Shown here piece by piece: positions 2,415-51,653 of a stretch of 64,000 nt of DNA (positions are counted from its first letter, which is position 1; the number at the start of each line of letters is the position of its first letter). Made by a program: the position numbers and the translations under genes. The notes under the pieces are model-generated. The model did not search any database. It worked only from the letters and a program-made list of their open reading frames with translations, and was not told where the DNA came from. Source of the DNA: Rhodopseudomonas sp. AAP120 (GTDB taxonomy: Bacteria; Pseudomonadota; Alphaproteobacteria; Rhizobiales; Xanthobacteraceae); the NCBI RefSeq assembly GCF_001295845.1, contig NZ_LJIC01000107.1:62001-126000 (forward strand). The letters are read 5' to 3'.

Positions 2415-2625
2415 AAACGCTTGGTCTGCGGATTCCCGATTATCTTCCAGAGGTCCATTACCACCAAGTCCGTGACGCACGGCATGGATTGTGAACTCTG
2501 TCAGGGAAATGAGCCGCCGGCACTCACGCCGGGGAATGGGCGACACTAACCACCCGTTCCAGATTGTTTTGATGCGACATGTGACCAAATCGCAGTTCCG
2601 AATTGACATTGTAGGGGGCGCTGAG

Positions 2626-3177: not shown

Positions 3178-3812
3178 AGACCGACGACCTCATCGCCATG
3201 CTCGGGACCAACGTCGAACCGATCCGCCGGCCGGCCGGCCGGACACTGACGCTGGCGATCGCGGGGGGCGTGCTGCTCGCCGCGTGCGGCGTCATGGCCA
3301 CGATGGGGCTGCGGCCGGACCTGGTGCAATCGGTTTCACTGCTCTATCTGCTGCTCAAAATCGGTTTGATGCTTTTGATCCTTGTCCCGGCCTCGATCTT
3401 CCTGAAACGGCTGGCGCGACCGGGTGGCGAGCGCCGGGTGTCGCTGGCGCTGCTGGCGCTGCCTTTCCTTGTGGTCATGGTGCTGGCCATCGTGGCCCTT
3501 TCGATGACGCCGCGGTCACATTGGACGGCCGAGATCATCGGCGATGAATGGATCGAATGCCTGGTGTCGATCCCGGTGATCGCGATCGTTCCGTTTGCCG
3601 CTATCATCTGGGCGGTGCGCCGGATGGCGCCGACCGATCTCGTACGGGCGGGCGCGGTGTCGGGTCTGGTCGCGGGCTGCATCAGTGCGTTGGGCTATGC
3701 GCTGCATTGCACCGCCGACAGCATTCCATTCATCGCCGTCTGGTACGGCGGGACGGTCGTGCTATGCACGCTGGCCGGCGCGCTGCTCGGTCCCCGGCTG
3801 CTGCGCTGGTGA
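3174..3812 (+). CDS. nrsF: NrsF-family (DUF1109) membrane anti-sigma factor
   Basis: A 212-residue protein with a short cytoplasmic N-terminus (MKTDDLIAMLGTNVEPIRR) and six hydrophobic segments, ending GALLGPRLLRW. This matches the NrsF/DUF1109 family in length and in the N-terminal DLIxxL...N.xP(I/V) pattern. NrsF proteins hold the partner ECF sigma factor at the membrane until stress releases it, in Caulobacter through periplasmic cysteines; here Cys residues occur in TM1, in DEWIECLVS, and in the last two segments. It is translationally coupled to the sigma gene through the ATGA overlap. Confidence 0.88.
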   Translation: MKTDDLIAMLGTNVEPIRRPAGRTLTLAIAGGVLLAACGVMATMGLRPDLVQSVSLLYLLLKIGLMLLILVPASIFLKRLARPGGERRVSLALLALPFLVVMVLAIVALSMTPRSHWTAEIIGDEWIECLVSIPVIAIVPFAAIIWAVRRMAPTDLVRAGAVSGLVAGCISALGYALHCTADSIPFIAVWYGGTVVLCTLAGALLGPRLLRW

Positions 3813-4808: not shown

Positions 4809-7214
4809 ATGGCCGGCGATGACACTCACGCTTCGAAAGGGGCTCGTCAAATCACTGACAAGCACGCGAATACAGGCTTCCATTCCCGTCATTCTCAATA
4901 TCGTTTGGATCATGATGTTGGTCTCGCCGTAGCCCATGTCCGTGGCATGTCCATCGATCCTGCGACAACGCAACATAAGATCGAACGGACAGGTGAAACC
5001 GTTTACTTCTGCTCAGATCGTCGTCGAACCGAATTCCTCGATGACCCCGAAAGCTACGCTAGGTTACCGTCGAAGACGGCCAATTCTGTGACGGTGCCAG
5101 AGGGTGAAATCTACACTTGCCCGATGCACCCGCAGATTCGGCAACCAGGGCCTGGCAATTGTCCGATCTGCGGCATGGCCCTGGAGCCGGAGATCGCGAC
5201 GGCAGAGACACGCGCCAATCCCGAATTGGCCGACATGGTGCGGCGCTTCTGGCTCGGCCTAGCGTTATCTGCTCCGGTGGTGGCGCTCGAGATGGGGGGG
5301 CACCTTATCGCTGGTCATGGTTGGATTGATCAGACGCTTTCAAACTGGATTCAACTTCTTCTCGCAACACCAGTTGTACTTTGGGCCGGCTGGCCCTTCT
5401 TCGCCCGCGGTTGGCGATCCATCCTGAGCCGAAACCTCAACATGTTCACCTTGATCGCGATGGGAACAGGCGTCGCTTGGATCTACAGCGTCGTTGCCAC
5501 CCTAGCTCCTACGGTATTCCCTTCGACGTTCCGCGGGCATGACGGCGCTGTTGCTGTATATTTCGAGGCAGCGGCGGTCATTACTGTGCTCGTCCTTCTC
5601 GGACAGGTGCTCGAACTGCGGGCTCGCGAGGCGACCTCCGGCGCGATCAAGGCACTCCTCGATCTTGCTCCCAAGACAGCGCGGCGTGTGCGTTCCGATG
5701 AAGCCGATGAGGAGGTGCAGATTGCGGTGCTTCAGCCGGGTGATCGACTACGCGTACGCCCCGGCGAGAAGGTTCCTGTCGATGGTGAGATTGTGGAGGG
5801 CCGCTCCTCCCTCGATGAATCCATGGTCACTGGCGAATCCATGCCTGTCAGCAAAGACATCGGCGGCAAGGTGATTGCCGGTACACTCAATCAATCCGGC
5901 GGCTTCATCATGCAAGCGGACAAGGTTGGCAACGATACGATGTTGGCGCAGATCGTCCAAATGGTTGCACAGGCGCAGCGATCCCGCGCACCGATCCAAC
6001 GCCTTGCCGACCAAGTCGCAGGCTGGTTCGTGCCTGCCGTCATAGGGGTCGCCTTCGCCGCATTCGCCGCCTGGGCTGCCTACGGCCCCGAACCTCGCTT
6101 TGCGTTCGGCATCGTTGCGGCAGTCAGCGTGCTGATCATCGCATGCCCGTGCGCGCTCGGACTTGCAACGCCGATGTCCATCATGGTGGGCGTTGGGCGC
6201 GGCGCGCAGGTCGGCGTGCTGATCAAGAACGCGGAAGCGCTGGAACGCATGGAGCGCATCGACACCCTAGTGGTGGACAAGACCGGCACTCTGACGGAGG
6301 GCAAGCCTAAGGTTGTCGCTGTGGTGCCTGCCATTGGCACTACCGAACTTGAGTTACTGCGCCTCGCTGCAAGCGTGGAGCGTGCCAGCGAGCATCCCTT
6401 GGCGGCCGCGATCGTTGCCGAAGCAAAGCAACGTGGTATCCAGACGAGCGACGTCCGTAATTTCGATGCGCAGGCCGGGAAGGGCGCGGTTGGTATAGTC
6501 GAAGGGCGGAAAGTGCTCATCGGGAACGTTGCCTTCATGGGGGGCAACGGCGTAGAGACATCCGCGCTTTCGGCTGAAGCTGAACGTCAGCGTGGCGACG
6601 GGGCGACTGTTATTAACGTCGCCATCGATGGCCAGTTGGCCGGCATCTTGGCCATCGCCGATCCCGTCAAACAAACCACCCCCGAGGCGCTGCGAGACCT
6701 CGCCGACGAAGGCGTCAGGGTGATCATGCTGACCGGAGACAACCGAACGACCGCGGAGGCGGTTGCCGGGCGGCTGGGCATTGCCGAAGTCGAGGCGGAA
6801 GTATTGCCCGATCAGAAGAGCGCCGTCGTCGCTAGGCTGAAGGGGGAGGGCCGGGTGGTTGCGATGGCAGGCGACGGCGTGAACGATGCGCCTGCGCTCG
6901 CTCTAGCGGAGGTCGGAATTGCCATGGGGACGGGTACCGACGTTGCGATGGAGAGCGCCGGGATAACTTTGCTCAAGGGAGATTTGACCGGCATCGTGCG
7001 CGCGCGGCGCCTGTCGCGCGCGACGATGAGCAACATCCGCCAGAACCTCTTCTTCGCCTTCGCCTACAATGCCGCGGGTATCCCGATCGCAGCTGGCGTC
7101 CTCTATCCCACTTTCGGCCTGCTGCTGTCGCCCATCATCGCTGCCGCGGCCATGGCGCTTTCTTCGGTCAGCGTTGTAGGGAACGCGCTTCGGTTGCGGG
7201 TGGCGAGAATTTGA
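4809..7214 (+). CDS. copA: copper-translocating P1B-type ATPase
   Basis: An 801-residue metal pump that uses ATP to move Cu(I) out of the cytoplasm. In order it shows a YHS-like domain ([27 protein letters not shown], about 50-90), a heavy-metal-binding motif [22 protein letters not shown] (about 102-124), and the CPC metal-channel motif ([13 protein letters not shown]). Then come the phosphorylation site [11 protein letters not shown], the SEHPLAAA nucleotide-binding motif, TGDN and the hinge [10 protein letters not shown]. The last two helices carry YNAAG and the final [16 protein letters not shown] block of Cu(I) pumps. There is no classical N-terminal CxxC domain. Met47 is an alternative start just before the YHS domain. 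It probably forms a unit with the DUF2933 gene downstream. Confidence 0.96.
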
Positions 7215-13002: not shown

Positions 13003-13257
13003 TCATTGTTCTTTCCTGGGCCCCATGTGGTGCGGTACGTCCGTCTTGGGTCCGCCGCCGTAGTGATGGCTGCCGCCGGACTTGCTCGTCGAACCGGTGC
13101 CCTCCTTCTTGCCCATGTGGTGGGGGACTTCCGTCTTCGGTCCACCCGAATAGTGATGGCCGTTCTTCTCGTCTCCAGAAGTGGTGGTCTGTGCCACGGC
13201 AGGCAGCGTAACGAAGGATATTACGGCAGCGGCCGCAAGCAACTTGCAGGCGTTCAT
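13003..13257 (-). CDS. small exported His-rich repeat protein (HHYxGGPKT repeats), second copy
   Basis: The 84-residue product starts MNACKLLAAAAVISFVTLPAVAQ (signal peptide), followed by two repeats, GHHYSGGPKTEVPHHMGKKEG and, after TGSTSKSGG, SHHYGGGPKTDVPHHMGPRKE. It is clearly related to the protein at 4215-4457. GGGAGAAGAGAG lies just before the ATG. The His, Met and Tyr clusters suggest metal binding in the periplasm; there is no Cys. The family is not recognised. It ends at the shared hairpin 12961-12993. Confidence 0.75.
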   Translation of the reverse strand: MNACKLLAAAAVISFVTLPAVAQTTTSGDEKNGHHYSGGPKTEVPHHMGKKEGTGSTSKSGGSHHYGGGPKTDVPHHMGPRKEQ

Positions 13258-13583
13258 TTCTCTCTTCTCCCTTTTGACCGAGCTGGTATCGAAAGCAATC
13301 AAATCAGATGTTCGATCCGGAAACAATCGAACCAGAATCGGAGATGTAGCGCTTGAGCTGGATCAACCGTCGCCCGGCGCGAGTCGGAGTCGATGCACAA
13401 GACTTCATCCGAGATATAGACGCCTGATGTGGGGATTTCTTACAGAGCTGATCGAGATATTTTTGCAAGCGATCGTAGCCACGAACGGCGAGCGGCAGAG
13501 TAGGGTTGTTCTCCAGCCTACTGGGTCGCGAACAACTGCATGGCCAGTCATTCGGAACTGGCGGTTGAAACGATTTGGAGACG
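13258..13583. other. intergenic region between divergent small-protein genes
   Basis: This 326-bp gap holds the divergent promoters of the His-rich peptide (left) and the Met-rich peptide (right). I looked for a GTAACC-N16-CGAA box like that at 3859 and found only CGAAC (minus strand) without a good upstream half. No gene is supported. Confidence 0.5.
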
Positions 13584-13916
13584 ATGATGAAGACGATCGG
13601 TCAAAGAAGCCTCATGACGGCCCTCTCGCTTATGTTGGCCTTCGGCGTGTCCGGAGCTGCTTCAGCGCAACAGCAAGCGCCAGTTACTCAGGCTCAACAG
13701 AACGCACCCCCTCAGCAGGCCGCGCCAGCTCAGCCGGGCCCGGGCATGGGTCAGAAAATGATGAAGGACGGAATGGAGCACGAGCAAATGGGCCGAAAGG
13801 GAATGGAAGGCGAGCATGGCCGGATGGGGTCGGGAATGCAGCAGGGTCAGTCGAAGGACTCAGCCCCGACGACTGGCGCAAATCCCTCGACCGCACCGTC
13901 CACCGGTTCCAAGTAG
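13584..13916 (+). CDS. small exported Gln/Met-rich protein
   Basis: About 110 residues. The signal peptide is MMKTIGQRSLMTALSLMLAFGV...ASA, followed by a QQ-rich and Pro/Ala-rich stretch. The tail has many Met and His residues (GMGQKMMKDGMEHEQMGRKGMEGEHGRMGSGMQ). TTTGGAG precedes the tandem ATGs. Met-rich periplasmic peptides often bind Cu(I). The composition is like the start of the Spy-like protein at 17789. I know no family name for it. Confidence 0.65.
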   Translation: MMKTIGQRSLMTALSLMLAFGVSGAASAQQQAPVTQAQQNAPPQQAAPAQPGPGMGQKMMKDGMEHEQMGRKGMEGEHGRMGSGMQQGQSKDSAPTTGANPSTAPSTGSK

Positions 13917-14133
13917 CTGCGCGAAGGAGCCGTGGTTACAGGTTCGTTCGACAGATGGGAATAAGTCTGAGCCATCGGACAAACACGCTACGCGGTCGCA
14001 CGAGGAGAGATATCCTCTCCGTCCTGCGGCAACAGATTCAGATGAACCTCAAAGGCAAAACTACCGAGGGGACGTTTCCGGCTATTGTTTCGTTACATCG
14101 GCGAGCGACCCATCGAGAATGAGAGGAGCAACG

Positions 14134-15378
14134 TTGGCTGACGCAACGACTGGCCGCGCGCCCGGTTGGACGCTGCAGATTGCGATCTTAGTGCGGCAGC
14201 GGATCTGGGAAACGATCACCATCAGATCCGTTCTGCCGCAGCCGGAGCGCGATCTGCGCCTGGATTTGTTTCGCGGTCTTGCGAATTGGCTCATCTTCCT
14301 GGGGCATATCCCTGACTCCGTGCTCACCTGGTTCACGACGCGAAACTACGGCTTCAGCGATGGAGCAGATCTGTACGTATTGATTTCCGGCTACACGGCG
14401 ACGTTTGTGTTCGGAAAAATCATGATCGACCGCGGCTTTGTGATTGGGGCCACGAGGTTGTTACGTCGGGTGTGGCAGCTCTATGCCGCGCATCTGCTGC
14501 TGTTCATTCTATCTTACGTCGGTGCACTATCTCTCGCACAGATTCGAAGATCCTCATCTCATGGATCAGTTCAACGTCGCCTACCTCATGAACTCTCCTG
14601 TCGAGACGCTTTCGCAAGGCCTGCTGCTCAAGTTCAAGCCTCTCAATCTTGACGTTCTGCCGCTCAACATTGTGCTGATGGCGGCGTTTCCGATCGGGCT
14701 TTGGTGCATGTTGCGGTGGCGAAACGCGGTCCTGATTGGATCGATCGGTTTGTATCTGGCAGGTCGTCACTATGGCTTGAATTTTCCGTCCTATCCCGCA
14801 GGAGTCTGGTACTTCAATCCGTTTGCCTGGCAGTTGCTCTTCGTCTTTGGAGCATGGCTCGCGCTTGGCGGGGCCGAGCCTGCCGATGGCTGCTTCGCTT
14901 TCAGATGCTCTACATCCTGAGTGTCGTTTTTCTGCTGTTCGCGCTGGTGCTGACGCTCGCAGAGCGGATTCCGCCCCTGCGGCAGTTCATTCCATTCGCC
15001 ATTCACGAGATGTTCATTCCCAACGACAAGACTAATCTCGCGCCCTACCGTGTGATCCATTTGGCGAGCTTGGTCTTCATCGTCGTATCGGTCATTCCGA
15101 TGGACTGGTCGGGATTGCGGTGGCCAATCCTCAAGCCGCTCATCAGATGCGGGCAACAGTCGCTACCGGTGTTTTGTGTAGGTCTGTTCCTTTCATTCGT
15201 GGCCCATTTTGTGCTGGAGTTCGGTTTAGAGGGGATTCTGGCCCAGATCCTGGTGGGCGCGGCAGGTCTATGGATGATGACGATCGTCGCCTACTACCGG
15301 ACGTGGTCGAAGCAAGTCGACAAGAGTCTGTCCTCCAGCCGGAAATCGACGGCCGCGGAGGTCGGTGGCGATCCGTGA
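14134..15378 (+). pseudogene. OpgC-type membrane acyltransferase with two frameshifts
   Basis: Three consecutive frame segments together give one OpgC protein, a multi-pass enzyme that modifies periplasmic glucans: PERDLRLDLFRGLANWLIFLGHIPDSVLTWFTTRNYGFSDGADLYVLISGYTATF; then HYLSHRFEDPHLMDQFNVAYLMNSPVETLSQGLLLKFKPLNLDVLPLNIVLM; then LYILSVVFLLFALVLTLAERIPPLRQFIPFAIH to the end. The shifts are at about 14530-14560 and 14870-14905, each a single base, so either recent decay or sequencing error is possible. The likely start is TTG 14134 after GAGAGGAG; ATG 14119 is also in frame. A second frameshifted OpgC is at 38303-39455. Confidence 0.82.
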
Positions 15379-15433
15379 ACCGCCCGGATGAGGTATTGCT
15401 GCTTTGAACTGTGGACATATGGGCGGAGTGGGA

Positions 15434-15847
15434 ATGATAACTTCCGAAAATCTCTTCACCGAACAAACTCAAGGTGCCATTCTGCACGGGCTTCACTGGA
15501 CCGCGTCGGCTATCGAATTGCTCGGAGTCGTTGTAATCGTCTGCGGCGTCATCGCTGCAACAATCTGGTCCTTGGGCGAAATGCGGCAAGGGTCATTTGA
15601 CGACGCCTTTTGTTCCTACTGTGCCAATCTAGGCCGCGGAATCTTGCTAGGCTTGGAGTTTCTGATTGCCGCGGATATCATCGGAATGGTCGCGATAGTG
15701 CCGTCGTTTGACCGCCTCGGCATTCTCGCCCTTATTATCGTGATCCGGACGTTCTTGAGCTTCTGCCTGCAGATCGAGATCGAAGGTCGATTGCCTTGGC
15801 AGCGGTACAAGTCGGCTGCCGAAACGGCGGATCACGTCGTCCTCTGA
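15434..15847 (+). CDS. DUF1622 membrane protein
   Basis: A 137-residue protein with three hydrophobic segments: IELLGVVVIVCGVIAATIW, LGLEFLIAADIIGMVAIV and LGILALIIVIRTFLSFCLQIEIEG. The block R(G)ILLGLEFLIAADII and the ending LSFCLQIEIEGRLPW are typical of DUF1622 proteins, whose role is unknown. The ATG at 15434 follows GGGCGGAGTGGGA. It overlaps the convergent DUF3141 gene by 16 bp. Confidence 0.82.
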   Translation: MITSENLFTEQTQGAILHGLHWTASAIELLGVVVIVCGVIAATIWSLGEMRQGSFDDAFCSYCANLGRGILLGLEFLIAADIIGMVAIVPSFDRLGILALIIVIRTFLSFCLQIEIEGRLPWQRYKSAAETADHVVL

Positions 15848-17616
15848 TACGTGTCGGATTTCTTGGGAGGAGCAGAGCCGTACATTATCGCGAACATGCG
15901 CTCCAGAGTCGCGTCGCGGTTGAGCCGGGCCGTTTCGATGGACGAGGTAACCAGGCTGATCCATTTTCGTTCGCCGCCAAGGTAGGGATTGTCTTCGGCC
16001 AAAGGCTGACGATTGTCGCGGATCGATTTCGCAAGGGGCGGGAGCCCGCGGAGCCACGGCAAGAATGCTGGGGAGAAGAGATAGCGGCGGGCCCGCATCG
16101 GGTGAAGCCATTTGGCCATTTCTGCCGTCAACGGATTGGAAGTAGCCTGGACGAAGGGGCTGAAGAACGTCTTGTAGATTGCTTCTGCCGTTTCGGAGAA
16201 GTCTCTTATGCGCTCGAAGGCGGGGTCCGGCTTCGGGAAGTTGAGATCTTCGACCTGCCGTGGCTCGAACCGCACTGCAAAGGGGAGATTTGACGAGTTG
16301 TCCGAAGCGCCTCCTTCTTCAATCTTCATCTCGTATAAGCCGGGCGCGAGCCGTTCGATCTCGGGCATGCTGGCGAGGATGGCCCGGTGCTCGCGTTGAG
16401 CAACCGCACCTGACACGAAGATTCCCAAATGTCCCACGTGGGGATTGGTCAAATATGCTATCCGCTGTCCGGCCTGGATCAGTTCGGAGGTGGTCCTATA
16501 CACGATCGGAATCCAGCCTAGGGCCTGGTGCGGCGGCGTAATGTTGTCGCCGTAGGAGGCAAAGATCACGAGCGGATTGCGGATGCGACGAAGGTCGGCG
16601 AAGCAGTGTTCGCAGATTCGGAAACGACCGTCTTCGAGCTGATTGCCGATGAAGAGGTTTTCGACGATCGCCAAGATTTCCTCACGGCTAAGGAAGAAGA
16701 AGCTTCCCCACCAGCGCTCGAAGTCGAGGAACCGCTCCCGTTCTCGGTCGATGTGGGTGAATAGGTTGGCGTATTTTTCCCATTGAGCTTCAGGTTTCAG
16801 ATTCTCGAAGTTCTGCGCCAGCCAGGCGCCGTCGAATCGTCCATCGCCGAGATCGGCAACGAGATGTGCCAGCCAAACGCCCCCGTTGAAGCCGGCTGCG
16901 AGACGCATTGGATTGACACCCGCTTCCCCCGACCAATAGGAGAGCGGCGATCCGTTCAGCACCGCGGGTCCCACAAGTCCGCTGCAGTCTGCCGAGAGCA
17001 GCGTCACTGCCCAGCCGGCCTGACAATTGCCGTACAGAATGGGCGCGCGGCCAGCGTGACGGATGGCCACGGCTTGAACGAAGTGACGGAGCGCATGCAA
17101 GACGTCGGCGAGGGTCTGTCCACGGCAGGGCTCAGGGAAAAACGAGACAAAGTATACCGGGTATCCCTCCGCAAGGGCGATACCAACCTCCGAATCCTTC
17201 TTGAAGCCGCCGATTCCCGGCCCGTGTCCGGCGCGTGGATCGATCACGAGGACGGGAGATTTCTGCTCGTCGCTTGGCGTGATGGTCGGTGCGTCTTCGG
17301 CGAAAATGCGCAAGAGGACGTAGTTGACGGGATGCGCAAACTGCCGCGCATCCAGAATGGTCTCGGACCGAAAATCAAGGAGAGGCGGCAGCCCGCGTCT
17401 TTCGTGCTCTATCAGATCGTCGGCGCGTTGCCGGAGCGTATCCCAGAAGAGAATGGAGCGTTCGAGGAGGTCGCGGCTGTACGTCCACAGGTCCGGCGCG
17501 GCATCGGATGCCTCTGCACGAGTGGGCTGGGAGTTTGCCCCGCATGCATCGCCATTGGGTGTAGGTGCTTCGGGAGCGGCCTGAGAACCAACGGGACTTG
17601 AGTGTAAGAACTGCAT
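15832..17616 (-). CDS. DUF3141 protein (PHA-synthase-like alpha/beta hydrolase), apparently short at the C-terminus
   Basis: A 594-residue product. Recognisable parts are YSRDLLERSILFWDTLRQRADDLIEHERRGLPPLLDF, SPVLVIDPRAGHGPGIGGFKKDSEVG, the nucleophile-type elbow YGNCQAGWAV (a Cys where hydrolases have Ser, as in PHA synthases), and YGDNITPPHQALGWI. Then comes a Phe-rich second half. DUF3141 proteins I recall are longer by well over 100 residues, so this one probably lost its C-terminus; the last residues MYGSAPPKKSDTYQRTT look like run-on sequence into the DUF1622 gene. The start at 17616 follows GAGAG; ATGs further upstream add nothing conserved. The function is unknown. Confidence 0.8.
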   Translation of the reverse strand: MQFLHSSPVGSQAAPEAPTPNGDACGANSQPTRAEASDAAPDLWTYSRDLLERSILFWDTLRQRADDLIEHERRGLPPLLDFRSETILDARQFAHPVNYVLLRIFAEDAPTITPSDEQKSPVLVIDPRAGHGPGIGGFKKDSEVGIALAEGYPVYFVSFFPEPCRGQTLADVLHALRHFVQAVAIRHAGRAPILYGNCQAGWAVTLLSADCSGLVGPAVLNGSPLSYWSGEAGVNPMRLAAGFNGGVWLAHLVADLGDGRFDGAWLAQNFENLKPEAQWEKYANLFTHIDRERERFLDFERWWGSFFFLSREEILAIVENLFIGNQLEDGRFRICEHCFADLRRIRNPLVIFASYGDNITPPHQALGWIPIVYRTTSELIQAGQRIAYLTNPHVGHLGIFVSGAVAQREHRAILASMPEIERLAPGLYEMKIEEGGASDNSSNLPFAVRFEPRQVEDLNFPKPDPAFERIRDFSETAEAIYKTFFSPFVQATSNPLTAEMAKWLHPMRARRYLFSPAFLPWLRGLPPLAKSIRDNRQPLAEDNPYLGGERKWISLVTSSIETARLNRDATLERMFAIMYGSAPPKKSDTYQRTT

Positions 17617-17788
17617 TTTTGCTCTCTGGCGCTCATGTGAACTCGGATTCGACCGTACCATCCCTCCCACGCTCGCGGGCTGCACTTATTCGCGTAATAT
17701 TTGGTGCCGTTCTGCGTCTATAACTTGAATACGTATCAACTCGTCCGGTCCTTGAGTGAGTGGGCGAGCATCAACGCGGAGATTGTAC

Positions 17789-18484
17789 ATGAAAACCGTA
17801 AAACGCGCCGGGACGGCCATCCTTCTTGCACTGAGTCTGGTTCCGGCGGGCCTGTCATTAAACTACGCTGCAGCGACCGAGCGTTCTCGACTTGCGATGA
17901 TGGATGACGACAAAATGTCCAAGAAGCCGGATTCGCCCGCCGGGGGCGGCATGGGTCAGCCCGGCGGCCAAGGCAATCCGAATAGCATGGGCGGCGGCAG
18001 GGACGACAGGATGATGAAGATGCAGCCGCCTGGCCAAATGCAGGACTGTCAAGGTCCAAACTGCCAGGGCTCCGGCATGATGATGCAAATGATGAAGATG
18101 ATGGAGCAGATGCATGGCAAGATGGGTCCGTCTTCGGGCGCTGCCGCCAGCGGCCCTGCCGATGTAACCGAGCGCCTCGAGGGACGGATCGCCTTCCTCA
18201 AGGCCGAGTTGCAGATCTCCGACAAGCAAGCGGCAGACTGGAATCAATTGGCAGATGCCTTGCGCTCCAGCCGCCAGCATCTCCTGGAAGCTCGCAAACT
18301 GCTCGTGATGGACGACAAGGTGACGGGAAGCGAACGGCTCGACCACTACGAGCATCATCTGTCGGAGCGTCTGGAAGCGATCAAGTCGGCTCGCGCCGCC
18401 TTCAATCGACTGTATGGATCGTTGAACGACGGGCAAAAGCAGACGGCAGATGCCATTTTGCTGCCGCTGATCGCGACGTTCTGA
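17789..18484 (+). CDS. Spy/CpxP-like (LTxxQ) periplasmic protein
   Basis: A 231-residue exported protein. The signal peptide is MKTVKRAGTAILLALSLVPAGLSLNYAAA. A Gly/Met-rich stretch with MDDDKMSKK, GSGMMMQMMKMMEQMHGKMG and CQGPNCQG follows (about 30-120). The helical part ADVTERLEGRIAFLKAELQISDKQAADWNQLADALRSSRQHL resembles the LTxxQ repeat of Spy/CpxP-type chaperones and ZraP-type metal sensors. The C-terminal LSERLEAIKSARAAFNRLYGSLNDGQKQTAD repeats this pattern. Met and Cys clusters suggest copper binding. GGAG lies 9 bases before the ATG. It is the first gene of the redox operon that follows. Confidence 0.82.
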   Translation: MKTVKRAGTAILLALSLVPAGLSLNYAAATERSRLAMMDDDKMSKKPDSPAGGGMGQPGGQGNPNSMGGGRDDRMMKMQPPGQMQDCQGPNCQGSGMMMQMMKMMEQMHGKMGPSSGAAASGPADVTERLEGRIAFLKAELQISDKQAADWNQLADALRSSRQHLLEARKLLVMDDKVTGSERLDHYEHHLSERLEAIKSARAAFNRLYGSLNDGQKQTADAILLPLIATF

Positions 18485-18510
18485 CGGCGTCTTCTCGGAA
18501 GCAGGGGTTC

Positions 18511-20619
18511 ATGTCGAGATCCGCTACGCCCTTCCGGTGCCGACACGATCTGCTCTCCCGGCTCTTCTGTGGGTCGTTGGTCGCGAGCATCACAGTCGCG
18601 GTCACTGTGGCGTTTGCCAATGACGGTCGCGTACAGCAAGGTCAAGATGAGTTCGCGGCGTTGCCGACACGCGTGAGGGTGCCCGATGTTGCTTCAGGTC
18701 GGTCGAGCGGCCGGCCGGGCGCCGAGCAGCCGAATCGAATCTGGCGTCTGGCGCAGGACGATAGTCATTCGGCTCACCATCCCGCCGCCCCTAGCAGCGA
18801 TACGGTGCCGCAATCGAATGGCCCGACAATGTCGGGTGGCAACACCGCGGCTCCATCGTCAAGTCGTCCCAATTCGGGGATGATGGGCGAGATGGAGATG
18901 ATGGGGCGGCCCCGCAAGGAGTTCTTTCCGTCGCTGATGGAGATGCCGGCCCTCTCGGCGGAGCAGCGCCGCAATTTGGAATCTCAAGCTCGCAGCCGAA
19001 TCAACTCCAAAATTGACGGAATCTCAACGGCCGAGATGGACTTGCGGCATGCCATTGCTGCCGGCGATGTGGCGGCGGCGGATGGGGCTGCCGCTCGAAT
19101 TCGCGACTCGCTCAACCAGGTCCAGAGTGGTGTGACCGTGTTGCGGTCGCTGGACGAGGGGGCGTCCCCGCAGCAGATAGCGCGGACCTGGTTCAAGGCG
19201 CAGATGAATCTTCCGGTGCAAACCGCGGCGGTGAGTGCTGATGGTGTACTTGGAGTTTCCTGGTTTCACGTCATCACGATGGGACTGCTTGCGATCTTCT
19301 CGGCCGGACTGCTGGCCGTCCATGTGGCGCGAATGCGACGGGCCAACGCGCTGGTTGACCGATTATCACATGTCCCGGGCAATTCCCCGGCATTGTCTAC
19401 CGCAGGCGTCGATATTCGATCGACAACCAGGATGGTCGATGTCCCGGCCGTGCCCGCGACGAGAAATGCGTCTCGAGGGCAGGAAAAGGAGGCGCCAGCC
19501 GCGTCGCAGGCGAGTGCTCCGAGCGCTCGTCCAGCAAAGCCGGAGGGACTCTGGAAAGGTAAGCTTCGCGTCGGAGCAATCTTCGACGAAACGCCGAGCG
19601 TCAAGACGTTTCGTCTGCAAGCGCCGCAGGGCGGCCCTATTCCCTTCGCGTTTCTCCCGGGTCAGTTCTTGACCTACTCGGCCGAGATTGATGGAAAGGT
19701 CGTCAGACGATCTTACACTATCGCTTCGTCCGCCGCCCAGACCGCCTACGTGGAGACCACGATCAAGAAAGAAGACGGGGGCATTTTCTCCGCGTACCTG
19801 CACGCCAGCATTAAGGAAGGCGATCTCCTTGATGTCATGGCTCCTTCCGGCGCCTTCACTTTCACCGGCAAGGAGGCCGAGAGCGTGGTCTTGATCGGTG
19901 GGGGCGTAGGTATCACGCCCTTGATGGCGGCGATACGATATCTGTTCGATACCGCGTGGCCCGGACAGATCTACCTCGTCTACGGCTCCCAGACGACTGA
20001 ACAGTTCATTTTCAGAGACGAACTGGAACACCTTCAGCGTAGAATGAACAACCTGCATGTAGCCGCCACTATGGCGCGCGCAGCGGGTACGGCCTGGATG
20101 GGAAGCGAAGGCCAAATCACGGCCGAATTCTTGCAACGCTCGGTACCCGAACTTGCAAAGCGTCGCGTGCACTTGTGTGGGCCTCCGGGGATGATGGAAG
20201 CGCTCAAGAGGACGCTCCGCGAAATTGGCGTCCCCCCCGAACAGGTCAAAACCGAGGCATTCGGACCCGCCTTCGGAGCCGTTCCGCCTCCAGGCAGGAC
20301 CATTATCGAAAGTCCCGTGCCGAAAAACGCCGAAGGGGGTGCAGTGATCGGTCCGGCAACGGCATCGATCCGCTTCGCGAAGTCGGGCAAGCTCGCTCCG
20401 CTGCCCCCCGACAGAAGCGTTCTCGAGGTCGCCGAGTCGATCGGCGTGGCGATCGACTATTCGTGCCGTGCCGGAACATGCGGCATCTGCAAGACGCGGC
20501 TTCTCGAAGGCAAGGTCACGATGGAAGTCCAGGATGCGCTAACGGAGGAGGAAAAAGCCGACGGACTGATCCTCGCGTGCCAGGCGAAGTCGATCGGAAA
20601 TTTGATCGTCGAGGCTTGA
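18511..20619 (+). CDS. membrane-anchored flavin / 2Fe-2S oxidoreductase
   Basis: A 702-residue fusion. An N-terminal membrane segment (SRLFCGSLVASITVAVTVAFA) leads into a Met/Pro/Ser-rich periplasmic-type part with an LTxxQ-like helical domain (FPSLMEMPALSAEQRRNLESQ, about 140-220), and a second TM (VITMGLLAIFSAGLLAVHV). The ferredoxin-NAD(P)H reductase module has FLPGQFLTYSAEIDGKVVRRSYTIAS (FAD), LIGGGVGITPLMAAIRYL and HLCGPPGMMEAL (NAD(P)H). The plant-type ferredoxin end has DYSCRAGTCGICKTRLLEGKV and LACQAK, the four Cys ligands of a 2Fe-2S cluster. It should take electrons from NAD(P)H and hand them to the haem proteins encoded directly downstream. Confidence 0.9.
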   Translation: MSRSATPFRCRHDLLSRLFCGSLVASITVAVTVAFANDGRVQQGQDEFAALPTRVRVPDVASGRSSGRPGAEQPNRIWRLAQDDSHSAHHPAAPSSDTVPQSNGPTMSGGNTAAPSSSRPNSGMMGEMEMMGRPRKEFFPSLMEMPALSAEQRRNLESQARSRINSKIDGISTAEMDLRHAIAAGDVAAADGAAARIRDSLNQVQSGVTVLRSLDEGASPQQIARTWFKAQMNLPVQTAAVSADGVLGVSWFHVITMGLLAIFSAGLLAVHVARMRRANALVDRLSHVPGNSPALSTAGVDIRSTTRMVDVPAVPATRNASRGQEKEAPAASQASAPSARPAKPEGLWKGKLRVGAIFDETPSVKTFRLQAPQGGPIPFAFLPGQFLTYSAEIDGKVVRRSYTIASSAAQTAYVETTIKKEDGGIFSAYLHASIKEGDLLDVMAPSGAFTFTGKEAESVVLIGGGVGITPLMAAIRYLFDTAWPGQIYLVYGSQTTEQFIFRDELEHLQRRMNNLHVAATMARAAGTAWMGSEGQITAEFLQRSVPELAKRRVHLCGPPGMMEALKRTLREIGVPPEQVKTEAFGPAFGAVPPPGRTIIESPVPKNAEGGAVIGPATASIRFAKSGKLAPLPPDRSVLEVAESIGVAIDYSCRAGTCGICKTRLLEGKVTMEVQDALTEEEKADGLILACQAKSIGNLIVEA

Positions 20620-20620
20620 C

Positions 20621-21316
20621 ATGGACGGCAGAGGGCGCCTGATCGCTGACATCGTTCTCGCAAGCCTCTTGCTGTTGGTGCCCGCATATCTGCTCCACTC
20701 GGATTCGAGATTTGCAGGCAGTCTGGCAGGATTTGCACTCGGCGCGTCGGCCACGATGCTGATGGTGCTTCTCCTCATCTATCCTCTCGTGAAGTACAGC
20801 AGAAGCTTCAAGGTCGTGGCAAACCGTCTTGTGTCGACGCGGACTCTCCTGGGATTTCACGTCTACGCCGGGATCGTCGCCGCCTTCCTTGCGCTCCTGC
20901 ACACGGGACACAAATATCACAGCCCGCTCGGGGTTGCGCTGATTGTCACAATGTTGGTCGTCGTCGTCACCGGCTTCGTGGGAAGATACTACCTGCCTCA
21001 GACCGCCAACGAGATCCGGGAGCAGCAATCGCGTCTTTCGATATTGCGGTCGGCCTACGACCGTACGGCGATCGTTCTGTCCATCGAAACTGCGGATCCG
21101 GAGGCGGTGAGTGCGTCAGCGCTGCAGGAAGTGCCGCTCTCACAACTGGTCGACGGAATTTCCGATCTTGAGCATGCGATAGGGTCGCAGGAAGCCATCA
21201 AGAAGATCTTCATGCAGTGGATCGGCGTACACGTGGTTTCGGCAATCGTCATGTATGCGCTGTTGGCGCTGCATATCGCCGGAGAAATCTACTACGGGCT
21301 TCGGTGGCTCTCGTGA
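20621..21316 (+). CDS. b-type cytochrome-like membrane protein
   Basis: A 231-residue protein with about five membrane segments and paired His residues suited to haem b: FHVYAGIVAAFLALLHTGHKYHSPLG (about 85-110) and WIGVHVVSAIVMYALLALHIAGEIYYGLRWL at the end. A soluble loop (about 120-190) lies between them. The gene starts one base after the stop of the reductase gene and overlaps the cytochrome c gene by 4 bp, so the three are translated together. It probably moves electrons across the membrane from the reductase to the periplasmic multihaem protein. It is not a standard cytochrome b561 by sequence. Confidence 0.78.
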   Translation: MDGRGRLIADIVLASLLLLVPAYLLHSDSRFAGSLAGFALGASATMLMVLLLIYPLVKYSRSFKVVANRLVSTRTLLGFHVYAGIVAAFLALLHTGHKYHSPLGVALIVTMLVVVVTGFVGRYYLPQTANEIREQQSRLSILRSAYDRTAIVLSIETADPEAVSASALQEVPLSQLVDGISDLEHAIGSQEAIKKIFMQWIGVHVVSAIVMYALLALHIAGEIYYGLRWLS

Positions 21317-22089
21317 GCGTTCGGACGTTCATCTATATGGTGGTCGTGACACTCGCAGTCGCGGGCGTCGCCGCGTTGTCGCTGGGCCTGTATCGTAACG
21401 GGTCTCTGGCTGTTTCGGGATGGACCGACGCGGTCCTCCCTGGCCATCTTTCCAGTCGGCACGGGTTTCTGTCCGAGAGGTGCGAAACCTGTCATACGCC
21501 GACCAAGGGTGTAGAGGCAGCGGCTTGCATCGCCTGTCATACGACAGCGGCTACCGATCTTGGCAAGCAGTCGACGGCGTTTCATGCGACGAGCAAGGAA
21601 TGTCGTGGGTGTCATCTTGAGCATGCGGGCGGCGTGCGTCCGACCAAGATGGACCACTCTGTACTTATCCAGATCGGAGCGTTTTCCCGAAACGCCGACA
21701 CCTCGGCTCGGGCGATTACCGAGAAGATGGTGCTCGATCTGAAGAACGTCCTTGGATTTTCCAGGTCCGATGAACGCGAAAAGGCAAGTCTTGGTTGCTT
21801 TGAATGTCACAGCAATCGAGAACCGCATCGGGGGCTCTTCGGGCGTGAGTGCGCTGACTGCCACGGAGTGGACTCCTGGAAGCTCGCGCAGTTCATGCAC
21901 CCCTCCCCGAGCTCCAAGGAATGCGCACAGTGTCACCAGGCGCCGCCGAGTCACTACATGGAGCATTTTGTGATGATGGATCAGATGATCACCGGAAAGG
22001 AGAAGGCGGCCGTGAACCAATGCTACCTCTGCCATCGGACGGACTCCTTCAACGACATCAAGGATGTCGGTTGGTACAAACATCATTGA
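21313..22089 (+). CDS. membrane-anchored heptahaem cytochrome c
   Basis: A 258-residue protein with one N-terminal membrane helix (FIYMVVVTLAVAGVAALSLGLY) and seven CxxCH haem sites: CETCH, CIACH, CRGCH, CFECH, CADCH, CAQCH and CYLCH. Extra His residues can serve as distal ligands. The start is the GTG at 21313, overlapping the previous stop (GTGA). It is likely the periplasmic electron outlet of the reductase / cyt b / cyt c chain. What it reduces (metal, nitrogen oxide, periplasmic protein) cannot be told from sequence. Best fit is the loosely defined multihaem class III / cytochrome c3-like group. Confidence 0.9.
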   Translation: MSVRTFIYMVVVTLAVAGVAALSLGLYRNGSLAVSGWTDAVLPGHLSSRHGFLSERCETCHTPTKGVEAAACIACHTTAATDLGKQSTAFHATSKECRGCHLEHAGGVRPTKMDHSVLIQIGAFSRNADTSARAITEKMVLDLKNVLGFSRSDEREKASLGCFECHSNREPHRGLFGRECADCHGVDSWKLAQFMHPSPSSKECAQCHQAPPSHYMEHFVMMDQMITGKEKAAVNQCYLCHRTDSFNDIKDVGWYKHH

Positions 22090-22101: not shown

Positions 22102-22392
22102 ATGACGATATCAGCCGCGCGTCAACTTTCGCGCAGGGCGGTCTGCGGCGTCATCCCCGGAATCACCTGGCCATTTCGGCTTCGCGCGACTGCCGCTTCG
22201 CGTGCGGCGCTGGTGTACAGGGATCCTAACTGCGGTTGCTGCGGAGCTTCGGCAAAGCATCTCGCTTCTGCGGGCTTCTCAATCGAGGTTGCAGAAACCT
22301 CCGATCTGGACGAGATCCGGCGCCGTCTCGGGGGACCCGCTGAACTGGCGGCCTGCCATACCGCCAAAGTTGAGGCTATTTCGGTCCAATGA
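22102..22392 (+). CDS. DUF411 metal-binding protein, C-terminally truncated
   Basis: The 96-residue product contains LVYRDPNCGCCGASAKHLASAGFSIEVAETSDLDEIRRRLGGPAELAACHTAKV, the core of DUF411 proteins, whose CGCC and CHT motifs suit copper binding. Normal members continue with a conserved (Y)xxEGHVP region and a further 50 or so residues. Here the sequence ends in EAISVQ right after CHTAKV, so the gene was cut, probably by the same rearrangement that left the copA relic next to it. It lies 12 bp after the cytochrome gene. Confidence 0.78.
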   Translation: MTISAARQLSRRAVCGVIPGITWPFRLRATAASRAALVYRDPNCGCCGASAKHLASAGFSIEVAETSDLDEIRRRLGGPAELAACHTAKVEAISVQ

Positions 22393-24259: not shown

Positions 24260-25711
24260 ATGAAGATGCCGCTAACCGCTCGATCCGGCCTTTCTCATCA
24301 CCGAGCCCGCACGACGCTCGGCGTATTGTCGATGTCGATGTTGCTCGCCGGGTGCGCAGCCTTTTCCCCCGATGCCGGCATGTCAGGCGTCGCCGACATT
24401 GCCGCGAGGACCATCACGAAGGATGTAGTTGCGATCCGCTCGATCGAGGACGTCGAGCGGGTTAACGTGGCGGTCTCGGCACTGCTGCGGCGAAGCCTGA
24501 CCGTCGACGCTGCGGTTCAGGTAGCATTGTTGAACAATCGTGGCCTGCAGGCTGCCTACAATGAGCTCGCACTGGCGGAAGCGGACTCCATCAGCCAAAG
24601 CCTGCCTCCGAACCCGACGTTTTCTCTCTCCAGAATCGCCGGAAATGGGGGGAGTGAGATCGAGGGCCAGATCGTTGGCGATATCCTCGCGCTCGCGACG
24701 TTGCCGTTTCGTACGGAGATCGCGCGTGAACGTTTCCACCAAGCTCAATTGCGCGCGGCTCTGGAAACACTACGGCTCGCCGCTGACGTCAGACGAGCAT
24801 ATTACCAGGTGGTGGGTACGAACGAACTGGTCGGACTTCTGGCCGAGACTAAGACCACTGCCGAGACGATCGCTCAGCTCGCGGAAAAGCTTGGACAGAC
24901 CGGCTCGCTCAATAAGCTCGATCAAGCGCGCGAACAGGTATTTTACGCCGAGATCACTACCGACCTCGCTACCGCGCGGCAACGCGCTGCATCCGAGCGC
25001 GAGCGGATCGCAAGACTGCTCGGTGTTTGGGACGGTCAACTCGATTTCAAGCTGCCCAAGGTTCTTCCGGCCCTGCCGCGCAGCCCGAGGCCGTTACCCA
25101 ACATCGAAGTCGAGGCCGTCAGCCGTCGCGTCGATCTTCAGATGGCCCGCATCGAACTCGGAACGTTGGCCAAGGCTCTCAATCTCACCGAGGCGACCCG
25201 CTTCGTTACGTTGCTCGACGTCGCCGGCATCTCCCGGAAGACCAAGGACCCCGAAAGCCCCGCCTTCCGCGAGCGAGGATTCGACGTCCAATTTCAGATA
25301 CCGATCTTCGATGGGGGCGAGGTTCGCGTCCGCCAGGCCGCTGAAATCTACAACAATGCATTTAATCGCCTGACCGAGAAGGCGGTCAACGTGCGTTCCG
25401 AGGCACGTGATGCGTACCGCGTCTATCGCTCCACTTACGATATCGCCGGCCACTACCAGCGGGAAGTGGTGCCGCTCCGGAACATCATCTCCGATGAAGC
25501 TCAACTGCGCTACGGCAGCATGCAGATCGACGTGTTCGCGCTTCTCGCGGAAGCGAAGCTGAGAATCTCGGCCCAACGAGCATCGATCGAAGCCAAACGC
25601 GATTTCTGGTTGGCGCAGTCGGAACTGCAGACCGCAGTCAACGGCGGAGGCCGCTCCGACAGTCAACAGGAGAGCCGTTCACCAACCAATTCGCTGGCAA
25701 ACGGCGGATAA
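24260..25711 (+). CDS. TolC/CusC-type outer-membrane efflux lipoprotein
   Basis: A 483-residue channel protein. The signal peptide ends in the lipobox MLLAGC. Two outer-membrane-factor repeats follow (about 85-260 and 270-460), with LTVDAAVQVALLNNRGLQAAYNELALAEADSISQSLPPNPTFSLSRI and, in the second half, REVVPLRNIISDEAQLRYGSMQIDVFALLAEAKLRI. These proteins form a trimeric tunnel across the outer membrane. No RND pump or membrane-fusion gene is beside it, so its pump partner is elsewhere or it works with the copper oxidase genes downstream, as CopB-like channels do. Confidence 0.9.
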   Translation: MKMPLTARSGLSHHRARTTLGVLSMSMLLAGCAAFSPDAGMSGVADIAARTITKDVVAIRSIEDVERVNVAVSALLRRSLTVDAAVQVALLNNRGLQAAYNELALAEADSISQSLPPNPTFSLSRIAGNGGSEIEGQIVGDILALATLPFRTEIARERFHQAQLRAALETLRLAADVRRAYYQVVGTNELVGLLAETKTTAETIAQLAEKLGQTGSLNKLDQAREQVFYAEITTDLATARQRAASERERIARLLGVWDGQLDFKLPKVLPALPRSPRPLPNIEVEAVSRRVDLQMARIELGTLAKALNLTEATRFVTLLDVAGISRKTKDPESPAFRERGFDVQFQIPIFDGGEVRVRQAAEIYNNAFNRLTEKAVNVRSEARDAYRVYRSTYDIAGHYQREVVPLRNIISDEAQLRYGSMQIDVFALLAEAKLRISAQRASIEAKRDFWLAQSELQTAVNGGGRSDSQQESRSPTNSLANGG

Positions 25712-25723: not shown

Positions 25724-27106
25724 ATGTTATCTCGAAGAAGCTTTCTTGGTAGCGCAACTGCACTAGCGAGCGCGAGCGTCGTTGCTGGACGCGTTCAGGC
25801 AGCGAGCATTCCCGAAGCGCCAACGATGGACAAGGTGACGAGTCAGCCGCCGCTCTATCCCACGAGCGGACCGGAATATCGCCCCGTCGTCACCCTGAAC
25901 GGTTGGTCGCTGCCGTGGCGAATGAACGGAGACTGGAAGGAATTCCATCTGGTCGCGGAACCAGTCGTCCGCGAATTTGCGCAAGGCATGAACGCCCATC
26001 TGTGGGGTTACAACGGCCAGACTCCGGGACCCACGATCGAGGCCGTCGAGGGCGACAAGGTACGCATCTTCGTTACGAACAAGCTCCCGGAATACACCAC
26101 CGTTCACTGGCACGGCATGATCCTGCCGTGCGGCATGGATGGGGTCGGAGGTTTGACTCAGCCGCACATCAATCCAGGCAAGACATTCGTCTACGAATTC
26201 GAGCTCAAGCACAGCGGCACCTTCATGTACCACCCTCACGCGGACGAAATGGTCCAAATGGCGATGGGGATGATGGGAATGTTCGTGGTCCATCCGAAGG
26301 ACCCGAGCTTCCGACCGGTCGACCGCGACTTCGTCTTCGTCATGAGCAGTTATGACATGGATCCGGGGACCTACGTGCCGAAGGTCACCGAGATGACCAA
26401 CTTCAATATGTGGTCGTGGAACGCCCGCGTCTTTCCCGGCATCGATCCGCTGCCGGTGAGACTCGGAGATCGGGTGCGCGTGCGCATCGGCAATCTTACG
26501 ATGACCAATCACCCAATTCATCTTCACGGCCATAGCATTTCGGTGAGCGGCACGGATGGAGGGTGGGTGGCGGAAAGCGCGCGTTGGCCGGAGACCACGA
26601 TAGATGTCCCGGTCGGATCCATTCGCGCTTTCGAGGTCGTCGCTGACAATCCCGGCGATTGGGCTTTTCACTGCCATAAGTCGCACCACACGATGAACTC
26701 GATGGGACACGACCTCAGAACTCTGATCGGCGTGTCGAAGAAGGACATCGCAAAGGCGGTGAAGAGGCTGGCGCCGGATTCGATGGCGATGGGCTCCACT
26801 GGAATGGCCATGGGCGAGATGGAGATGCCGCTTCCTGACAACACGCTGCCCATGATGACCGGATCAGGTCAGTTCGGCCCGATCGAAATGGGCGGAATGT
26901 TCACGGTCATGAAGATTCGGGAGGGGATGGCGCGCGACGACTACAGCGATCCGGGACCGTACAAGTTCCCGAAGGGTACCGTTGCGTATCAGGTCGAAAC
27001 TCCGGCCGAAGAGCCGGCGCGTCAAGATGGTCCATCGAAGAGCGAGGGCACCAGGGAAAAGAAAAGTACGAAAGGGATGAAGAGCACGAAGAGCAAGGGG
27101 GCATGA
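25724..27106 (+). CDS. Tat-exported multicopper oxidase
   Basis: A 460-residue periplasmic oxidase that probably oxidises Cu(I) to Cu(II). A Tat signal (SRRSFLGSATALASASVVAGRVQA) is followed by two cupredoxin domains with all four copper motifs: HWHG, HPHADE, HPIHLHGH and HCHKSHHTMNSMGH. The Met/His-rich segment DSMAMGSTGMAMGEMEMPLP and the C-terminal Lys/Ser tail are extra. It is shorter than three-domain CopA/PcoA oxidases and fits the two-domain copper oxidases of copper operons. It overlaps the cupredoxin gene by 4 bp. Confidence 0.93.
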   Translation: MLSRRSFLGSATALASASVVAGRVQAASIPEAPTMDKVTSQPPLYPTSGPEYRPVVTLNGWSLPWRMNGDWKEFHLVAEPVVREFAQGMNAHLWGYNGQTPGPTIEAVEGDKVRIFVTNKLPEYTTVHWHGMILPCGMDGVGGLTQPHINPGKTFVYEFELKHSGTFMYHPHADEMVQMAMGMMGMFVVHPKDPSFRPVDRDFVFVMSSYDMDPGTYVPKVTEMTNFNMWSWNARVFPGIDPLPVRLGDRVRVRIGNLTMTNHPIHLHGHSISVSGTDGGWVAESARWPETTIDVPVGSIRAFEVVADNPGDWAFHCHKSHHTMNSMGHDLRTLIGVSKKDIAKAVKRLAPDSMAMGSTGMAMGEMEMPLPDNTLPMMTGSGQFGPIEMGGMFTVMKIREGMARDDYSDPGPYKFPKGTVAYQVETPAEEPARQDGPSKSEGTREKKSTKGMKSTKSKGA

Positions 27107-27600
27107 TCGTGAAACTGCTTTGGAGAATGACCGCTACCTTGATGGCTTTGTCGATGTCGACGGCGGCGTGGGCCAGTCATGGTCATCAACACGACGGTCA
27201 TCATCACGATGATGAGGCATTTTCCGCGGGCGAGCCGGGAGATCCGAAGAGGCCGGCCCGGATCGTTCCGATCACGATGCGTGAGGCCGACGGCAAGATG
27301 CTGTTCGTGCCGCAAGAGGTCGACGTGAAGAAGGACGAGCAAGTCAAGTTCGTTATTCGAAACAACGGCGAACTTGACCACGAATTCATCCTCGCGACGA
27401 CGGCCGAAAATTTCAAGCACGCAGAAGCGATGAAGACAAATCCCGACATGGAGCACGACGACCCAAACGGGAAGCGGCTCGCACCGAGGACGTCGGGAGA
27501 AATTCTCTGGAGATTTACAAAGACCGGAGAATTTGAATTCGCCTGCCTTATCCCGGGTCACCGCGAGGGCGGCATGGTGGGCAAGGTCGTCGTGAAGTGA
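27103..27600 (+). CDS. cupredoxin-family copper protein (CopI-like)
   Basis: A 165-residue protein: a signal peptide (MIVKLLWRMTATLMALSMSTAAWA), a His-rich linker SHGHQHDGHHHDDEAF, then one cupredoxin domain. Its metal site is formed by His in ELDHEFIL, and CLIPGHREGGMVG (Cys, His, Met). It is very close to CopI-type periplasmic copper-tolerance proteins. It is translationally coupled to the oxidase. A broken second copy is at 1076-1355. Confidence 0.9.
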   Translation: MIVKLLWRMTATLMALSMSTAAWASHGHQHDGHHHDDEAFSAGEPGDPKRPARIVPITMREADGKMLFVPQEVDVKKDEQVKFVIRNNGELDHEFILATTAENFKHAEAMKTNPDMEHDDPNGKRLAPRTSGEILWRFTKTGEFEFACLIPGHREGGMVGKVVVK

Positions 27601-51636: not shown

Positions 51637-51653
51637 TAGCGGAGTGCTTTGTA

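Follow-up and report, generated by a model that had tools for sequence, protein, structure and literature searches.

Two pairs of haem-ligand histidines, about 13 residues apart on two transmembrane helices, are the pattern of NADPH oxidases and ferric reductases, and MsrPQ keeps periplasmic methionines reduced. Membrane reduction of cupric copper is described for CcoG (FixG), a protein with two iron-sulfur clusters whose gene lies in the ccoGHIS cluster beside the cbb3 oxidase genes, as the passages of PMC7558416 on this protein have it. The Alteromonas HynSL hydrogenase operon (AltDE) includes two genes, orf1 and cyt, to which the passages on that operon give no function (PMC3102683). Here we analyse a 64-kb stretch of Rhodopseudomonas sp. 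AAP120 (NZ_LJIC01000107.1, positions 62,001-126,000; hereafter the window), in which genes for a membrane-anchored NAD(P)H reductase, a membrane b protein and a heptahaem c-type cytochrome stand in a row (together, the triad), with a gene for a Met-rich Spy-family protein upstream as the fourth member of the block.

The triad is a conserved cassette that extends far beyond its own genome, and it very probably forms a transmembrane electron conduit. Tentatively, we read it as an NAD(P)H-driven conduit that most likely feeds copper-linked reduction in the periplasm.

Conservation and spread of the triad

A first-pass annotation, made from the letters of the window, had described four genes running head to tail, the last three coupled by a 1-bp gap (reductase-b) and a 4-bp overlap (b-cytochrome) and ending in a cytochrome with seven CxxCH sites. 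Coordinates and domain matches agree with this, with all seven sites found in the 258-residue cytochrome. It had also proposed searching for the four genes together in other genomes. Searching species genomes with the cytochrome gave 425 stretches with a relative at E<=1e-3, of which the best 80 were used as loci; these are mostly alphaproteobacterial, with two Phycisphaerales-type records and one Nitrospirae metagenome-assembled genome by title. The b protein was present at 78/80 loci and the reductase at 77/80, with a Spy-type match at 53/80. All 77 loci have seven CxxCH sites in the cytochrome. The gap between reductase and b protein is 1 bp in 53/77 loci and the overlap between b protein and cytochrome is 4 bp in 76/77, counts for which the start codon nearest the neighbouring gene was taken, favouring short gaps. 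The triad thus recurs as a unit; the four-gene block does so in part, with the Spy gene directly upstream of the reductase in 41/77 loci. Pairwise distances of the three proteins also correlate (Mantel r 0.93, 0.82 and 0.85; 71 of the 77 loci, leaving aside reductases of odd length or cut by contig ends).

The same partnership is seen on plasmids. A tblastn search of 72,556 plasmids (E<=1e-5) with the b protein and with the cytochrome returned 52 records for each query, and every accession found with one was also found with the other. The carriers span Proteobacteria to Bacteroidota, with Sphingobium, Alteromonas, Legionella, Variovorax, Methylophaga, Acetobacter, Spirosoma and Pontibacter among them. 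Within the window's family, b protein and cytochrome co-occur in the same 7 of 198 genomes. A class-wide sample contained the triad in 2/385 genomes, including its own, which is too rare for a genome-level copper test, and in a phylum sample 31/398 genomes matched at E<=1e-10, mostly partially, with seven (its own included) near-full-length or split full-length. None of the 10 same-genus genomes listed had a match. This sporadic spread, together with the plasmid copies, suggests that the triad is mobile.

Two variants were met along the way. One of the seven family genomes (L009, G021:C215) holds a distant pair, in which a longer b protein (a 341-aa frame) is followed by a 12-CxxCH cytochrome frame cut by the end of the stretch. 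Loci L051 and L052 have a heptahaem paralogue with no b protein or reductase in the stretch examined; CusB/RND (resistance-nodulation-division) matches lie upstream, with an OpgC-like gene between in L051.

The three predicted proteins

Six histidines of the b protein are invariant (His26, 80, 94, 97, 204 and 218). Four of them form the pairs H80-x13-H94 and H204-x13-H218, invariant in 78 sequences including that of the window, with the members of each pair 14 residues apart. In the structure model (predicted local distance difference test 85.4), each pair lies on one helix (73-95 and 173-230). The protein therefore has the histidine pairs of NADPH oxidases and ferric reductases in both sequence and model helices, and it is likely to be a di-haem b protein. 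The long helices formed by residues 102-158 and 173-230 probably reach out of the membrane. Comparison of the model by VIA-align gave SpNOX at Z 9.9 (rmsd, root-mean-square deviation, 3.2; 119 aligned), but helical bundles with no relation to it reach similar scores; the matches listed also include FdnI (9.3), STEAP1 (8.7), b561 (8.6) and NOX5 (7.9), as well as cytochrome b6 and HyaC. Among 56 b proteins (of 73 available sequences), Pfam assigns DUF4405 to 27 and Ferric_reduct (PF01794) weakly to three (best E 0.0049). The window's own b protein has no PF01794 match and no NCBIfam family at E<=0.01.

A haem-b-like membrane partner, and a Spy gene placed directly before the reductase in just over half of the loci, are what one would expect if the conduit kept Met-rich periplasmic proteins such as Spy reduced, in the manner of MsrPQ. 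We consider such a repair line highly improbable, as no methionine sulfoxide reductase was found among the operon genes scanned and no MsrP-type match among the window proteins scanned; the missing NCBIfam match of the b protein also argues against it.

In the reductase, a signal-like stretch (judged by eye) is followed by a conserved N-terminal part, one transmembrane helix, and then domains for flavin adenine dinucleotide (FAD), NAD(P) and [2Fe-2S]. In an alignment of 70 reductases (69 of the 77 loci and the window, with odd-length or contig-end-cut sequences excluded), the flavin and nucleotide motifs are conserved, as is the four-cysteine motif of the [2Fe-2S] domain. The protein belongs with the FAD/[2Fe-2S] ferredoxin reductases; with named equivalogs (GbcB, PaaE, BenC, MmoC, NqrF) it reaches at best 225.9 bits against an NCBIfam cut-off of 500, among the matches listed. 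The flavin and [2Fe-2S] parts are presumably cytoplasmic and the N-terminal part periplasmic. After the signal-like stretch, the N-terminal part contains an H-x2-HHP motif, in which H90 is invariant and the other positions are at least 90% conserved across 59 N-terminal sequences (of 70 available). A Met-rich stretch, which contains cysteine in some copies, is followed by two long helices before the membrane helix. These His/Met motifs could bind metal.

The first-pass annotation had seen an LTxxQ-like, Spy-like domain within the reductase and suggested that metal binding there gates electron flow. The first gene of the block is indeed a member of the Spy/LTXXQ family (Table 1). For the reductase, that domain found no support: PF07813 does not match it and is absent from the 25 families matching any of the 59 N-terminal regions at E<=1, PF13801 (Metal_resist) matches two of the 59 (best E 0.25), and hhalign of the N-terminal profile against a Spy profile gave a probability of 0.9%. 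In the structure model the N-terminus is a hairpin of helices, and the 50 structure matches listed include no Spy-family entry. The gating idea thus retains some support from conserved periplasmic motifs that could bind metal, though none from a fusion to a Spy domain.

Outside its CxxCH sites, the cytochrome has nine further histidines, each conserved in 76-78 of 78 sequences (a Roseomonas plasmid copy, L013, whose cytochrome is spread over two frames, was excluded from the alignment). As seven bis-His haems call for seven distal ligands, two of the conserved histidines may be spare. Two of the nine lie in the motif PPSHxMxHFxM between haem sites 6 and 7, in which M216 is kept in 73/78 sequences and M221 in 76/78; from its residues, this is plausibly a copper site. 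A hydrophobic stretch at the N-terminus is a probable membrane anchor. The protein belongs to the cytochrome c7/class III family (PF14522, 30.3 vs a cut-off of 24.8 bits) and has one weak relative in the PDB (2a3m, E 7e-5).

Copper, oxygen and the course of the electrons

To describe the company of the triad, we counted two sets of copper genes by tblastn: a strict set (CopA/multicopper oxidase, CopB, P-type ATPase, four-helix copper protein, CopC and CopD) and a loose set that adds CusB, RND and DUF411. Strict genes occur within the stretch examined at 44/80 loci (22/47 among loci longer than 18 kb) and loose genes at 51/80; CopA-type oxidase matches alone are found in 32/80. On plasmids, strict genes accompany the triad at 11/15 loci examined (13 distinct records beyond Spirosoma's pair, out of the 52). 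Eleven regions from 10 genomes, met through the taxonomic samples, were compared with 20 control regions, all on the same contigs as triads: strict genes were found in 5/11 vs 2/20 and loose genes in 8/11 vs 3/20 (one-sided Fisher p 0.037 and 0.002), with two of the three loose control matches contributed by L155 and L156, on a 155-kb contig. The copper link is therefore frequent, but not universal.

Frequent neighbours are CopA-type oxidase, CopB, P-type ATPase, CusB/RND and DUF411, and DUF1622 is often found upstream (matches in 27/80 loci). We also surveyed the ten nearest called genes at 15 of the 80 loci, with gene calls by codon composition; proteins above 900 aa were excluded, so large RND pumps are missing from this survey. 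The 25 most frequent families include copper families and no iron-uptake family. This bears on the idea that the triad reduces ferric iron or another metal (Ag, chromate, tellurite), with copper incidental. Several b proteins are labelled 'iron reductase' in public annotation, and the cytochrome has weak NCBIfam matches to ExtN and ExtO of selenite-tellurite systems, although these reach 17.1 and 16.8 bits against a cut-off of 200. Given the neighbours, we think such a role very unlikely.

The second recurrent feature is the palindrome TTGAN6TCAA, a pattern of the FNR/FixK type. It occurs 161 times in the 80 loci, compared with 0-13 times for permuted half-sites and 5-21 times for other spacers. 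In 43/77 loci a box is found no more than 3.2 kb upstream of the reductase, a lower bound where a locus has less than 3.2 kb before that gene. It is often just before the Spy gene and, as read, before OpgC in L034 and L035. Genera with upstream boxes include Bradyrhizobium, Afipia, Microvirga, Reyranella, Roseomonas and Dankookia. The copies of Novosphingobium, Chakrabartia and Sphingobium SYK-6 have no upstream box, and the Sphingomonas sanxanigenens plasmid copy has two about 2 kb upstream; in both SYK-6 and the S. sanxanigenens plasmid a MerR-type gene lies shortly upstream. Three CueR-type operator patterns gave 0, 2 and 1 matches within 2.5 kb upstream, providing no evidence for CueR control. 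In the window's own genome the pattern is found 80 times in 6.16 Mb vs 27 times for its reverse, and four of these sites are in the window. The candidate site before the window's Spy gene has a 7-base spacer, a departure from the FNR/FixK consensus; L027-L030 and L032 have the 6-base form upstream of the Spy gene. The 11 sampled triad regions hold 22 sites in 204 kb vs 14 in 400 kb of controls, eight of these 14 in one region and nine contributed by L155 and L156. Judged by these sites, low-oxygen control is likely for a large subset of the loci, though not for all.

Such boxes would also fit a triad that is a general electron outlet or donor line at low oxygen, whose acceptor is an O2-reducing multicopper oxidase, an H2-evolving hydrogenase or a cytochrome, and whose copper genes are only frequent companions in the island. 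The CopA-type oxidases, the copies with no copper gene in reach and the hydrogenase linkage of some copies fit this explanation, as do the neighbours DUF3141 (9/80 loci) and, on some plasmids, phosphoketolase and AdhP. We nevertheless regard it as somewhat unlikely: the copper enrichment over controls and the conserved His/Met motifs of the reductase N-terminus and cytochrome speak against it, AdhP was matched at 0/80 loci, and only 3/11 sampled regions (L139, L140 and L141) were read to have a site in the roughly 2.5 kb upstream.

Some copies stand beside [NiFe] hydrogenase genes (L018, L025, L050 and L070). On the Alteromonas and Glaciecola plasmids examined, one further gene separates the triad from the [NiFe] hydrogenase maturation, hynS and hyp genes that come after it; in Alteromonas, CopC and CopD genes lie several kb from the triad. 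The triad and hydrogenase subunits are also close together in L050 and L070. Low-potential multihaem cytochromes serve hydrogenases in Desulfovibrio. In the triad, electrons might run the other way, from a periplasmic donor such as H2 via HynSL through the heptahaem cytochrome to cytoplasmic NAD(P)+. This reverse chain appears quite improbable to us, as hydrogenase large-subunit matches are confined to 3/80 loci, with none in the window. In addition, orf1 and cyt, to which the Alteromonas b protein and cytochrome genes correspond by gene order, were not found necessary for maximal hydrogenase activity in E. coli in the experiments that the cited passages cover, though that assay need not probe electron transfer in vivo (PMC3102683).

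The course that we favour is the one from NAD(P)H to copper. NAD(P)H would reduce FAD in the cytoplasmic part of the reductase, whose [2Fe-2S] domain would take up the electrons and hand them, by way of two stacked b haems in the membrane protein, to the anchored periplasmic heptahaem cytochrome. In the periplasm, Cu(II), free or held by Met/His-rich partners such as the Spy protein, would be reduced to Cu(I), which is the species transported by Cus-type pumps and P-type ATPases. Copper bound to the reductase N-terminus and to the extra His/Met motif of the cytochrome may tune this flow. In many alphaproteobacteria, an FNR/FixK-type regulator would probably switch the system on at low oxygen, a condition under which multicopper oxidases are unable to function. 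The sequences themselves show the domain content, the conserved cofactor and haem motifs, the His pairs, the operon coupling and the joint inheritance; from these we infer that the three proteins form a complex with this topology, direction and acceptor. A chain from NAD(P)H across the inner membrane had already been proposed in the first-pass annotation, and the domains fit it. Outward flow is probable, from the flavin/ferredoxin design and the many loci without a recognised periplasmic donor gene. Copper is the best-supported and most likely acceptor, because copper genes are the most frequent identified company after Spy and because of the His/Met motifs; that it is the main acceptor is, even so, somewhat less likely than not.

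Several observations weigh against this reading. No strict copper gene is found in the stretch examined at 36/80 loci (25/47 of those longer than 18 kb), at least 13 Bradyrhizobium copies among them. The 80 loci are the closest of the 425 and mutually related, so these counts are not independent. Some of the reference proteins for copper genes were taken from the plasmid loci and the window, and the counts for these sets may be raised by this. FNR-type boxes and copper genes are unassociated among loci (22/21/21/13), and the window's own site before the Spy gene has the longer spacer. Hydrogenase large-subunit matches occur at three loci, in addition to the Alteromonas and Glaciecola plasmids. 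For the b protein, Foldseek of the model gave no match at E<=0.001, and a talin bundle scores Z 10.1, which makes helical models weak evidence of fold. Cu(II) reduction beside a cuprous oxidase could also be futile. The copies without copper genes in reach and those linked to hydrogenases leave room for a general low-oxygen role.

In its strongest form, the proposal would be a plasmid-spread, so far undescribed cupric reductase, with an NAD(P)H-driven haem-b conduit like those of NOX and STEAP, flow switched by copper at a periplasmic His/Met site of its own, transfer of electrons to a heptahaem cytochrome with a copper site, and use at low oxygen. This full combination is unlikely, but if true, bacteria would have an equivalent of the Fre/STEAP metal reductases of eukaryotes, working on the periplasmic side.

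The window and the described systems

Table 1. Features of the window discussed in the text, by position
Feature	Position	Strand	Basis
Heavy-metal P-type ATPase, YHS and HMBD domains	4809..7214	+	Domain match
DUF1622-like small membrane protein	15404..15847	+	tblastn with DUF1622 reference, E 9e-19
FNR/FixK-like palindrome TTGAATACGTATCAA, 7-base spacer, ending 49 bp before Spy start codon	17725..17739		Sequence, candidate site
Met-rich LTXXQ/Spy-family protein	17789..18484	+	PF07813, 67.6 bits, cut-off 24.3
Membrane-anchored NAD(P)H reductase, 702 aa	18511..20619	+	PF00970, PF00175, PF00111 above cut-off
H-x2-HHP motif, residues 86-91 (H86, H89, H90, P91), candidate metal site	18766..18783	+	Kept in 93% or more of 70 aligned reductases
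Met-rich stretch GMMGEMEMMG, residues 123-132	18877..18906	+	Sequence
Transmembrane helix with His253 and Met257 (SWFHxxTM)	19264..19335	+	Both residues invariant in 59 sequences
FAD_binding_6 and NAD_binding_1 domains	19591..20208	+	Pfam
[2Fe-2S] ferredoxin domain (Fer2); Cys652, 657, 660, 690 conserved	20398..20589	+	Pfam and alignment
Di-haem-b-like membrane protein, 231 aa	20621..21316	+	Invariant His pattern, predicted
Heptahaem c-type cytochrome, 258 aa, GTG start	21313..22089	+	Seven CxxCH, PF14522 above cut-off
PPSHxMxHFxM motif, residues 211-221, plausible copper site	21943..21975	+	Alignment
DUF411-like short reading frame (CGCC), apparently truncated	22102..22392	+	tblastn with DUF411 reference, E 1e-7
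Outer-membrane efflux (OEP/TolC) protein	24260..25711	+	Domain match
CopA-like multicopper oxidase	25724..27106	+	Score below TIGR01480 cut-off
Cupredoxin-like copper-binding protein	27103..27600	+	Domain match

The copper surroundings noted in the first-pass annotation are present (Table 1): a multicopper oxidase, a cupredoxin, an OEP/TolC-type protein and a heavy-metal P-type ATPase. The DUF411-like frame after the cytochrome has no Pfam match; a DUF411 match in this place is also seen in L027-L029 and L033. Outside the window, the same contig carries a second cluster (L149), in which matches of the CopA, P-type ATPase, RND and CusB types are found.

Further genes of the window may be recorded here. 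A gene for an ECF-type (extracytoplasmic function) sigma factor and then an NrsF-type gene (2491-3812) lie upstream of the P-type ATPase. An OpgC-like coding sequence (13816-15378, +) is apparently split over frames, PF10129 matching its C-terminal piece only; L028 has a full-length OpgC of 418 aa upstream of its triad. The DUF3141 protein of the window is encoded at 15832-17685 (-), and this family also adjoins the triads of BTAi1 and Legionella fallonii. Small, secreted-looking proteins with His/Met motifs of the GHHYSGGPKTEVPHHMG type are found in the window (13003-13326, -), in L050 (7665-8027) and in L051 (14312-14572), and an FNR-type site at 13353 lies between the first of these and a divergent Met-rich gene (13575-13916). 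The G+C content drops to about 0.51 at 48001-52000, around a 1173-aa minus-strand frame (48115-51636), possibly a separate insert.

The first-pass annotation knew of no named system with this gene set. None was found among the papers listed in searches of an open-licence library, although, as described above, two members have counterparts in a named operon. That AltDE HynSL operon resembles the triad in its b and heptahaem genes at the orf1 and cyt positions in the passages that set out the operon (PMC3102683), and differs in its hydrogenase, for which the window and 77/80 loci have no large-subunit match; the window therefore does not hold an AltDE-type hydrogenase operon. Reading the triad as an electron conduit supplies a testable function for these two genes. 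The Cop, Pco and Cus copper-resistance systems are frequent neighbours, yet the triad proteins match no copper-resistance family. With cytochromes c7 and class III the triad cytochrome shares CxxCH sites and PF14522; it differs in its seven haem sites, hydrophobic N-terminus, PPSHxMxHFxM motif and operon partners. CcoG (FixG) is alike in carrying out membrane cupric reduction, unlike the triad in that its description includes no haem b protein or multihaem cytochrome in the relevant passages (PMC7558416).

The NOX/ferric reductase superfamily (SpNOX, NOX5, FRE, STEAP) shares with the triad two H-x13-H pairs on two helices and NAD(P)H and FAD domains. In the triad these domains are encoded by a gene separate from that of the b protein, and the set is extended by a [2Fe-2S] domain and, downstream, a heptahaem cytochrome. 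The triad joins NOX/FRE-like transmembrane electron transfer to a multihaem cytochrome, a set that is unreported in the open-licence literature searched. In alphaproteobacteria it may link the handling of copper with control by low oxygen, and, as a conserved and apparently mobile chain from NAD(P)H to the periplasm that keeps copper company in several phyla, it is a further candidate cupric reductase beside those already described.

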